Source: Pseudoxanthobacter soli DSM 19599 (GTDB lineage Bacteria; Pseudomonadota; Alphaproteobacteria; Rhizobiales; Segnochrobactraceae). From it: 64,000 bases of DNA. The stretch spans positions 248,001-312,000 of the forward strand of contig NZ_FRXO01000001.1 in NCBI RefSeq assembly GCF_900148505.1, written 5' to 3'. A program made the translations under genes and the position numbers. Shown here piece after piece: positions 15,214 through 17,667 of the stretch; position 1 is the stretch's first letter, and the number at the start of each line of letters is the position of its first letter. Below the pieces are notes generated by a model. That model saw only the letters and a list, made by a program, of their open reading frames with translations. It was not told the DNA's origin and searched no databases.

Positions 15214-15516
15214 GGCGGCGACCTGCAATTTCCTGGTGCGCGAAGCGGCGTCGTGCGCGGGATCGTCGGGCGGACGCGCAAACGGCATCGCCCCGGCCAG
15301 CTTCGAAGCGATTGAACTAGGCGACAGGCAGCCCCGCGTCAAGCGAACGGCGCTGCGGCAGGGCAGTCATGCAGGCAGCGAACAACGGGTTCGCGCCGGC
15401 AGGCGGCGAAATCGGCGACGCGTGATGAAAAAGGCGTCCGCACGGCATTTCGATTGTCGCTCCCGACCGGCTAACCTATAGTTGAGCCAAGGGACATTCA
15501 GGGTTGGGGGCAACTC
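15214..15516. other. 303-bp divergent promoter region, carA / exported protease
   Basis: I see no gene here. It must hold the carA promoter (minus strand) and the promoter of the gene at 15517 (plus strand, marked separately). No CarA-type leader peptide or pyrimidine attenuator was recognised. Confidence 0.5.
15454..15482 (+). promoter_or_regulatory. Candidate sigma-70 promoter of the exported protease gene
   Basis: TTGTCG at 15454-15459 and TATAGT at 15477-15482 are separated by exactly 17 nt. The expected transcript start near 15489 leaves a leader of about 28 nt, with a G-rich ribosome site (GGTTGGGGG) before the ATG at 15517. This is a sequence match only. Confidence 0.5.
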
Positions 15517-17667
15517 ATGCAGGCGGGTGCGGTACCCTTTTTGCGCGTATGGAAAGGCGCTTCGGTCCTTCTTCTCGGCGGTGCGCTGATCGCGGCGCCG
15601 GTGCGCGAGGCGCGGGCGGGCGGAGACGGCGCTGCGGTCGTGAGCGGCGTGCTCGGGTTCGCGCTCGGCGCCATCGCCGGCAGCGCCATGAACAACCAGC
15701 AGCGCCCCGGCAATGCGCCGGCCCCCACCCAGCGCGCGCCGAAGCGCCAGAAGCCCGTGCGGGCGCCGGACCAGACGGTGCTCAACGCGCAGACCGCGCT
15801 GAAATATTTCGGCTTCTACAACGGGTCCGTCGACGGGGTGAGCGGGCCGGGCACGCGGCAGGCGATCGCTGCCTTTCAGGCCAAGGTCGGCGAGGAGCCG
15901 ACCGGAAAGCTGACACCGGATCAATACGCCGCCCTGATGCAGATCTACGCTGATCGCGGCAGCGGCATGGGCGCCAGCGGCCCGGCGCCGAACGACCCAG
16001 GCGTGGATCAGCTGTTCGCCGCGATTTCGCGCGGGCCGGATGACGGCGCGCCCGCCCGCGCCGTGCCGGCCGCTACGACCGCCACCAACGTCGCGACGGG
16101 AGCCGCCGCAGCCGGCACCGCAGCCGCCGCGGCTGCCGCTTCGCCGGCCTCCCAGCCGGTCGCGACCGACGAACCGGTGGTGGCGCTCGTCGAGTACAAC
16201 GACGTCTGCATCGGCCGGAACGCGCTGAAATCCGCCGATGCCACAGCGGGCGAGATCGCGATCCGCCAGCATTTCTGCGGCACCCATGCCCTGGCGGTCG
16301 CGGCCGGCAACGCGGCCATCGACGAGGCCGAAATGACGGACATGGATGTGGTGCTGGCGCGGTGCGAGAAAACCGAGGAAGCCATCGACACCGCGATGGC
16401 CGACGTCTCGACCGCCGAGCCTGCCAAGAAGATGGAGGCGCTGTCCGGCCAGTTCGCCGGCATGACGGAGGAGGCGAAGCCGAAGGCGGTGCGCAATTTC
16501 GTCATCTGCACGGGCGTCGGCCTGAACGCGCTCGATGCCGGCGTGGTCAATGCGGCGTCGCTCGCGCTCGCGGCCCTCGGCAACGACGCCTATCTCGAGT
16601 TCGTGGCCTCATCCCTCGCGATCGGCATCGGTGAGGGGAAAGACTCCGCCGCCGCCGCCGAGTGGTACGACTACCTGGCCTCGCGGCCAGTCGTGGAGGC
16701 GCCCGGCTCCGGCATGCCGGTGTTGAAGGCGGCGGATGTCGCGGCGTTCAGGGCGATGGCGTCCGGCCTGAGGGCCGGCGGGGACGTTCAGATCGCGAAG
16801 GCGGAAAGCCTGCTCGTGCCGCAGTTCGACCAGCCGGCCGCCGATCCGCAGGAAAAGGCGCCGCCGGAGGTGATCCAGACGGCGAAGACGACCGTGGGGG
16901 GCGAGACAGGCGGTACGCCGGGGCCGGTCGCGGCCGACTCAAGTCACAAGGGGCTCGCGAATTCCGAGATCGCCGAGATCCTCAAGGACTCGATCGTCGT
17001 CATCTACGATCCGAAGGGCGGCACGTCCGGCACCGGGTTCATGATCGGGCCGCGCTATATCCTGACCAATTCCCATGTGGTGCAGGAGGCGGACCGGGTG
17101 GTGGTCGCCAGCCGTCGCTATGGCGTGCGCGCGGCCAACGTCGTGGCGAAGGGCATGACCCCGCGGAGGGTCGGCATCGACGCCGCGGTGCTCGAAACCG
17201 TCAACTGGACGGCGGACAAGCACCTCGCCTTCAGCACCGCGGTGCGCGAGGGCGAGCCGGTCGCGATCGGCGGCTTTCCGGGGCGCGCCTCGGAAAGCGA
17301 CCGGTCGTCCGAGCGCTTCTTCAGCATCATCACTCAGAACCGCATTCCGACCATCGACGATATCCCGGCGCCGAAATTCGACTTCGGCTATGTGCAGTCG
17401 CTGTTCACCGACAGCGAGACCGGCCTGAAGAACATCCAGGAGGGCCTGGAAACCTCGCCCGGCAATTCGGGGTCGCCGGTCACGAACAGCTGCGGAGACG
17501 TGGTCGGGCTGCATTATCAGGGCTCGGTGGCCCGCCTCACGGTCAGAAACGGCCAGGCGCTCGGTGATACCTCGAAATACAACTACGCCATCACCAGCGA
17601 CGAGGTGCTGAAGTTCCTGAAGTCCATCAACATCCGCTACGACGTCGTTGACGATCCGTGCAGATGA
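15517..17667 (+). CDS. Exported peptidoglycan-binding / trypsin-like serine protease fusion
   Basis: 716 residues. Domains in order: an N-terminal export signal (GASVLLLGGALIAAP, about 14-28); a glycine-zipper stretch VSGVLGFALGAIAGSAM (42-58); a PG_binding_1 domain (about 87-143, ALKYFGFYNGSVDGVSGPGT); an Ala-rich linker (180-215); an uncharacterised helical region with paired cysteines (225-440); a second linker; and a chymotrypsin-fold protease (about 483-716). The likely triad is H520 (LTNSHVV), D555 (GIDAAVLE) and S651 (SPGNSGSPV), so the enzyme should be active. It probably acts in the periplasm while bound to the wall. Substrate unknown. It is a single-gene unit with its own candidate promoter. 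Confidence 0.85.
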   Translation: MQAGAVPFLRVWKGASVLLLGGALIAAPVREARAGGDGAAVVSGVLGFALGAIAGSAMNNQQRPGNAPAPTQRAPKRQKPVRAPDQTVLNAQTALKYFGFYNGSVDGVSGPGTRQAIAAFQAKVGEEPTGKLTPDQYAALMQIYADRGSGMGASGPAPNDPGVDQLFAAISRGPDDGAPARAVPAATTATNVATGAAAAGTAAAAAAASPASQPVATDEPVVALVEYNDVCIGRNALKSADATAGEIAIRQHFCGTHALAVAAGNAAIDEAEMTDMDVVLARCEKTEEAIDTAMADVSTAEPAKKMEALSGQFAGMTEEAKPKAVRNFVICTGVGLNALDAGVVNAASLALAALGNDAYLEFVASSLAIGIGEGKDSAAAAEWYDYLASRPVVEAPGSGMPVLKAADVAAFRAMASGLRAGGDVQIAKAESLLVPQFDQPAADPQEKAPPEVIQTAKTTVGGETGGTPGPVAADSSHKGLANSEIAEILKDSIVVIYDPKGGTSGTGFMIGPRYILTNSHVVQEADRVVVASRRYGVRAANVVAKGMTPRRVGIDAAVLETVNWTADKHLAFSTAVREGEPVAIGGFPGRASESDRSSERFFSIITQNRIPTIDDIPAPKFDFGYVQSLFTDSETGLKNIQEGLETSPGNSGSPVTNSCGDVVGLHYQGSVARLTVRNGQALGDTSKYNYAITSDEVLKFLKSINIRYDVVDDPCR

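Follow-up and report, generated by a model that had tools for sequence, protein, structure and literature searches.

The window analysed here, a stretch of 64,000 nucleotides from Pseudoxanthobacter soli DSM 19599, carries at 15517-17667 on the forward strand an uninterrupted open reading frame that runs from ATG to stop over 716 codons and encodes a protein that we call P0001. The gene sits on contig C1 of the source genome (G000:C1, 5.16 Mb) and is oriented divergently from carA. Its G+C content at third codon positions (0.877) is like that of its eight neighbours (0.820-0.916), as is its codon use; a recent import of the gene was weighed, and the match in codon use speaks against it. In the gap between carA and the protease gene, a sigma-70-like promoter match (TTGTCG-17-TATAGT, 15454-15482, forward strand) ends 34 bases 5' of the start codon; this is a consensus match only, found once versus a mean of 0.2 in shuffled sequences. 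The neighbouring genes, named by eye from their translations, are of a housekeeping kind. The segment 7929-22167 of the window forms the junction of two blocks that a second genome, G002, carries on separate contigs, one with carB, a zinc peptidase, a DUF1003-like gene and carA, and the other with bpt, RDD and ilvA; the genes after carA in G002 are a YqeY-like gene and dnaG (all of these named by eye). In a further genome (G001), the two blocks flanking the protease gene are far apart, and gene order gave little.

P0001 consists, in order, of a probable export signal, a glycine zipper, a PG_binding_1 domain, a four-cysteine helical domain and a chymotrypsin-fold protease, all with coordinates on the forward strand of the window. 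The probable signal peptide (residues 1-34, 15517-15618), recognized by eye, ends in ARA before GG, and its A34 is invariant in seven aligned modules. The hydrophobic glycine-zipper stretch that follows (residues 35-58, 15619-15690) has the highest hydropathy of the protein and recurs in related modules, and a basic proline-rich linker (residues 59-85, 15691-15771), seen by eye and in the module alignment, separates it from PG_binding_1 (residues 86-140, 15772-15936). The latter scores 52 bits against a Pfam cut-off of 23 (E 8.2e-14), and the peptidoglycan-binding domain named in the initial annotation is thus borne out. An Ala-rich linker (residues 141-222, 15937-16182, G+C 0.768) leads to the four-cysteine domain (residues about 223-420, 16183-16776, with C231, C254, C283 and C331), which is delimited by conservation and by helices in a low-confidence model, and which includes a weakly Sel1-like stretch (residues about 355-390, 16579-16686) placed by a match to PDB 6ork. 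The next linker (residues 421-484, 16777-16968) holds five glutamates located from the alignment (430, 446, 451, 463 and 484), which are possible self-cleavage sites. Pfam, a domain model and structure comparison place the chymotrypsin-fold protease domain at residues 485-716 (16969-17664). Trypsin_2 matches residues 505-665 (E 9.9e-17, 62.5 bits against a cut-off of 27.6), and besides it and PG_binding_1 the sole Pfam family above cut-off is Trypsin, in the same region as Trypsin_2. Sequence alignment assigns the catalytic residues as His520 (17074-17076), Asp555 (17179-17181) and Ser651 in GNSGSP (17467-17469). The six cysteines of the protein are the four of the middle domain and two in the protease, Cys659 (17491-17493) and Cys715 (17659-17661), which alignment identifies as the first and second of a pair typical of its clade.

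Export of P0001 is probable, as assessed by eye and from hydropathy, for which the highest windows start at residues 39 and 40, and we infer that the protein is held at peptidoglycan via PG_binding_1. With a profile of the anchor part (signal, glycine zipper plus PG_binding_1), we obtained matches at 1e-18 in 33 of the 297 genomes searched within the order, the source genome included; up to 13 candidates were scored per genome, and some of the 33 match through the PG_binding_1 part alone. We scanned 22 anchor-type proteins, hand-chosen from three genome searches, against Pfam in batches of 10, 10 and 2, and each of them has PG_binding_1 above cut-off. Their payloads include a caspase in two (L115 and L118), ankyrin in one (L126, 6172-7947) and WD40 in one (L130, 5863-9918); in another (L131, 1311-2240) PAN_1 scores below its cut-off (18.8 versus 21.4), and the remaining 17, three of which have the middle domain, yielded no further Pfam family above cut-off. 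Judging from these sequences, the export and anchor module recurs in Hyphomicrobiales joined to different payloads, which suggests that this group reuses an anchor module. PodJ is described as having a periplasmic TPR plus a peptidoglycan-binding domain (PMC8980812).

The helical region with cysteines reported in the initial annotation is likewise confirmed, and the comparison of sequences indicates that this middle domain is a conserved unit. C231, C254, C283 and C331 are kept in all five compared sequences (P0001 included), which come from four families and two orders, and so is W383. The other carriers of the anchor part together with the middle domain are Propylenella binzhouense (G210), two genomes of one genus (G158 and G244) and one genome from another order of the same class (G549). 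In G158, G244 and G549, the open reading frame stops after the anchor and middle domain, without a protease, so that the middle domain need not be a protease receptor; it may have an independent function, with the protease as a possible addition to it. The protein of P. binzhouense L72 (NZ_SPKJ01000173.1; L005, L033 and L043), from the same order as the source of P0001, is 35% identical over residues 15-451 and shares with P0001 the signal-like start, the glycine zipper, a PG_binding_1-like part and the four-cysteine domain, but the contig stops before reaching any protease. When that genome was searched with a profile, four proteases came up, each in an open frame 494 to 556 residues long; no stand-alone fragment of the size expected was among them. 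Contig scans gave no relative when queried with the whole protein, and confirmed P. binzhouense alone when queried with the middle domain; these scans miss distant relatives, which were found by genome search, and a scan of viral contigs with the same limitation found no middle domain.

A profile built from four of the five middle-domain sequences matches the Sel1 repeat protein 6ork with an E-value of 6.7e-5 for the whole chain, which is a sum over five repeats of which none is significant singly (best i-Evalue 4.4). Pfam Sel1 itself gives no match to P0001 at E up to 1. The C-terminal end of the middle domain thus appears to resemble Sel1 repeats weakly. The only other matches of the middle-domain profile in 21 genomes lay in three long proteins, at E 0.04 to 0.08. 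The cysteines probably form disulfides that stabilise the protein, and the presence of six of them fits an oxidising compartment.

Searches for the complete layout returned it from a single genome. Among 61 genomes, three had any match at 1e-10, the source included, and there was no other whole-length relative; among 397 genomes of the order, 57 matched at 1e-8, and all parts were covered in the source genome only; among 289 genomes of the class, 12 matched at 1e-10, the source included, again with no other whole-length relative. Since few candidates were scored per genome (at most two in the 397-genome search and at most three in the 289-genome search), these figures bound strong relatives only, and weak relatives may be missed. 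At 1e-7, the protease domain alone has matches in eight of the 398 genomes searched across the phylum, the source included. Two other genomes of the same family have no match to P0001 at 1e-10, nor to the middle-domain profile at 0.1, and one profile search, with up to seven candidates per genome, recovered four genomes that were the very sources of the sequences in its query profile. Plasmid records gave partial relatives only (four records, none covering 80%), and 50,697 phage records gave no match. The initial annotation had held that no named family has this layout, and this stands for Pfam, for NCBIfam, none of whose models scores P0001 above its cut-off, and for the literature searched, in which we found no title or abstract opening describing the whole arrangement. 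A 2008 survey of 91 genomes recorded 15 multidomain S1 architectures, including Tryp-(Sel1)6, Tryp with two CW_binding_1 repeats and FHA-FHA-Tryp, and its text does not mention PG_binding (PMC2605481). Trypsin and caspase have been described as interchangeable peptidase components of conflict systems (PMC7159879). P0001 is a set of known parts in a new combination, seen in one genome among the samples searched.

To place the protease, we used an alignment of P0001 with 65 other rows (66 in total), which were gathered by similarity with a profile containing P0001, duplicates having been removed beforehand. From 19 loci on viral contigs, 13 entered A6, and the six whose match figures were identical to another were omitted. 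The complete H520-D555-S651 triad claimed earlier holds up: all 65 other rows carry H, D and S at the corresponding positions. One row (L072) reads GMSG at the Ser motif, and its genome match holds two stops; it was left out of the tree, which therefore has 65 rows. Cysteines occupy both 659 and 715 in 26 of the 65 other rows and neither position in 39, and in the tree, the 27 cysteine-pair rows including P0001 are split off by a branch with support of 100/99. The branch of P0001 is long (3.19), and its exact place within the clade is unsure. On the evidence of both cysteines and the tree position, the P0001 protease belongs to this cysteine-pair trypsin clade, whose other members come mostly from Alphaproteobacteria (L003, L006-L012, L017, L019, L030, L074, L075, L077-L084, L115, L155 and L157-L159). 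These share with P0001 the protease domain, the triad, C659 and C715, but differ in their N- or C-terminal parts (by eye, and by Pfam for the FHA domain in L115), and in 17 clade members examined we saw neither the anchor module nor the middle domain.

The substrate pocket sets P0001 apart from its clade. The stretch at 17452-17523 contains T646, H666 and G669, which correspond to positions 190, 213 and 216 when counted from S651 as 195 and placed by sequence alignment. At position 646 the other clade members have I, V, M, L or T, and at 666 all 26 of them have N, whereas P0001 has His, a residue that none of the 65 other rows shows there. Of these 65 rows, two share Thr at 646 (L149 and L157), nine Gly at 669 and two Ser at 653 (L148 and L151). 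His213 and Ser/Thr190 are described as mandatory S1 elements of glutamyl endopeptidases (PMC5508998), and P0001 has both by sequence alignment. In phmmer alignments, the T646-G669 segment around Ser651 is aligned to that of glutamyl endopeptidases (chains 6tya, 6u1b and 4jcn), with T646, H666 and G669 all matched, while the overall similarity of P0001 to V8-type chains is weak (E 3.4e-6 to 4.4e-6). The V8-type enzymes (Esp, V8 and BIGEP) have GNSGSP and the Thr190/His213/Gly216 set, like P0001, but they are secreted, Gram-positive and possess a free mature N-terminus. V8, BIGEP and Esp are reported to have Gly at the third position and to use the N-terminal amine as a charge compensator, and V8 forms with N-terminal additions to have less activity while still favouring Glu over Gln 10-20 times (PMC5508998). 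With Gly216, the V8 group relies on the amine of a free N-terminus; an internal domain would have one only if the chain were cut. Two considerations temper this comparison: SplB has the same Thr and His in the phmmer alignment, so the pocket set is not peculiar to annotated glutamyl endopeptidases, and His213 is common to Gln-specific enzymes too (PMC5508998), so a preference for Glu is not certain. The inferred activity is that of a catalytically competent protease that would cut after Glu. The parts of P0001 are already known; what is new is their combination, plus a pocket unusual for its clade.

The reading that we prefer, to which we give a probability of roughly one in three (0.35), is that P0001 is a periplasmic, wall-tethered, Glu-preferring endopeptidase that trims envelope proteins held by its middle domain. 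It would be exported, probably disulfide-stabilised and tethered to peptidoglycan by PG_binding_1. The four-cysteine, weakly Sel1-like domain would serve as a built-in substrate receptor, which is a guess, and the C-terminal chymotrypsin-fold domain would cleave the captured envelope proteins, with Glu preferred at P1, then Gln. The likeliest substrates, again a guess, would be cell-wall enzymes or other envelope proteins. Receptor, anchor and protease would thereby work in one chain like LbcA-CtpA or NlpI-Prc. In both systems, the protease receives wall enzymes through a partner protein and belongs to family S41. The likeness to P0001 lies in this proposed logic, whereas each of those systems comprises two proteins and its protease is not chymotrypsin-like; Pfam finds no S41 domain in P0001, which places it outside the C-terminal processing proteases and limits the comparison to how the parts might work. 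LbcA-CtpA is reported to degrade wall hydrolases (PMC6050968), and the Sel1-like IltA of Pseudomonas aeruginosa to bind and inhibit the lytic transglycosylase MltF (PMC10746161). If our reading is true, a wall-anchored receptor and protease in one chain would be an alternative to the two-protein control of cell-wall enzymes, and Glu specificity would have arisen within a Gram-negative periplasmic clade.

Would a general envelope protease of the HtrA kind, tethered to the wall and degrading misfolded periplasmic proteins without selective substrates, explain the same features? The initial annotation had proposed quality control as one of two roles, and we regard this as possible, if on the unlikely side. 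A full-length model built from two sequences had a mean pLDDT of 36.5 and was kept out of the fold searches. A protease-domain model from 14 sequences reached a mean pLDDT of 78.1 and a pTM of 0.81 (domain residues 147-163 are under 50), and together with the complete PG_binding_1 and triad, it lends sequence support to the earlier description of a wall-binding domain joined to an active-looking protease. The solved structures nearest to this model are the HtrA-type Rv0983, DegS, DegP and MucD, tied at Z 23.3-23.9 over the first 14 rows; Foldseek likewise places HtrA-type structures first and also lists Esp (6tya, rmsd 3.5; 6pym, 3.2) and Rv3671c (3k6z, 3.4), though HtrA-like sequences abound in the alignment from which the model was built, and the fold ranking may therefore be biased. 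The degP_htrA_DO model adds a weak match (27.9 bits against a cut-off of 416.2). Against this, P0001 ends with its protease domain and has no PDZ domain at E up to 1 in Pfam, which sets it apart from HtrA/DegP; its own genome has other proteases that resemble PDZ-type HtrA by eye (L056, L062 and L068), from whose rows T646 and H666 differ; and the cysteine-pair branch separates P0001 and its clade from all other rows. The MarP family (Rv3671c) shares the chymotrypsin fold, but P0001 scores 38.1 bits against the cut-off of 250 for MarP (NF033740) and falls outside that family.

A role in envelope signalling, in which the protease would be kin to the trypsins of kinase-FHA-caspase clusters and wall damage would trigger the cutting of a signalling partner, perhaps after self-release at the linker, seems doubtful to us. 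Its basis is that two genomes from two families (G166 and G097) have a clade trypsin with FHA near a large kinase, PP2C, FHA, VWA-FHA and an anchor-module caspase, with the parts identified by Pfam for G166 and by similarity to those for G097; the five Glu of the 421-484 linker would suit self-release. The cluster itself (L115, 109-12520; L177, 3578-15280) comprises a large STPK, trypsin-FHA, VWA-FHA, FHA, PP2C, a small STPK and an exported-looking PG_binding_1-caspase. However, it occurs in only two of the 17 clade contexts examined, and G166 was inspected because its trypsin and caspase genes lay close together. By the same test, the other 15 regions have none of those cluster genes save the protease's own FHA (L178 and L179), in a set that was hand-chosen and in which some regions are shortened by contig ends, and by eye no such neighbours lie beside the gene at 15517-17667.

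More speculative still is a scenario that combines several of these elements. Hyphomicrobiales would possess a chassis for anchoring to the wall (export signal, glycine zipper, basic linker and PG_binding_1) with swapped catalytic or binding payloads, to which a trypsin kin to those of the kinase-FHA-caspase clusters would here have been fused; this trypsin would have been re-specialised to Glu independently of the Gram-positive enzymes and would be weak while anchored, its activity boosted once a cut in the linker frees the N-terminus. That P0001 arose by a recent fusion, or is a decaying one, and has no lasting function appears improbable: the whole layout is found in one genome only, the protease branch is long, and the gene sits at the junction of two blocks that G002 carries separately, but 716 codons have stayed open with neighbour-like codon use, and the triad and six cysteines are retained. 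An anti-phage defence protease, the other role offered in the initial annotation, is very improbable and goes unsupported, since the PADLOC matches to RT-Protease_XI (45.1 bits, E 1.7e-12) and LmuA (26.7 bits) are confined to the protease part (profile positions 328-503 of 506 for RT-Protease_XI), P0001 lacks the reverse transcriptase domain of an RT-Protease system and is probably exported, the neighbours are housekeeping-like and by eye include no defence gene, and the phage records gave zero matches. Within the cysteine-pair clade, several members (L006-L010, L012, L078, L080 and L081) carry, by eye, an unnamed N-terminal domain followed by a single TM-like stretch.
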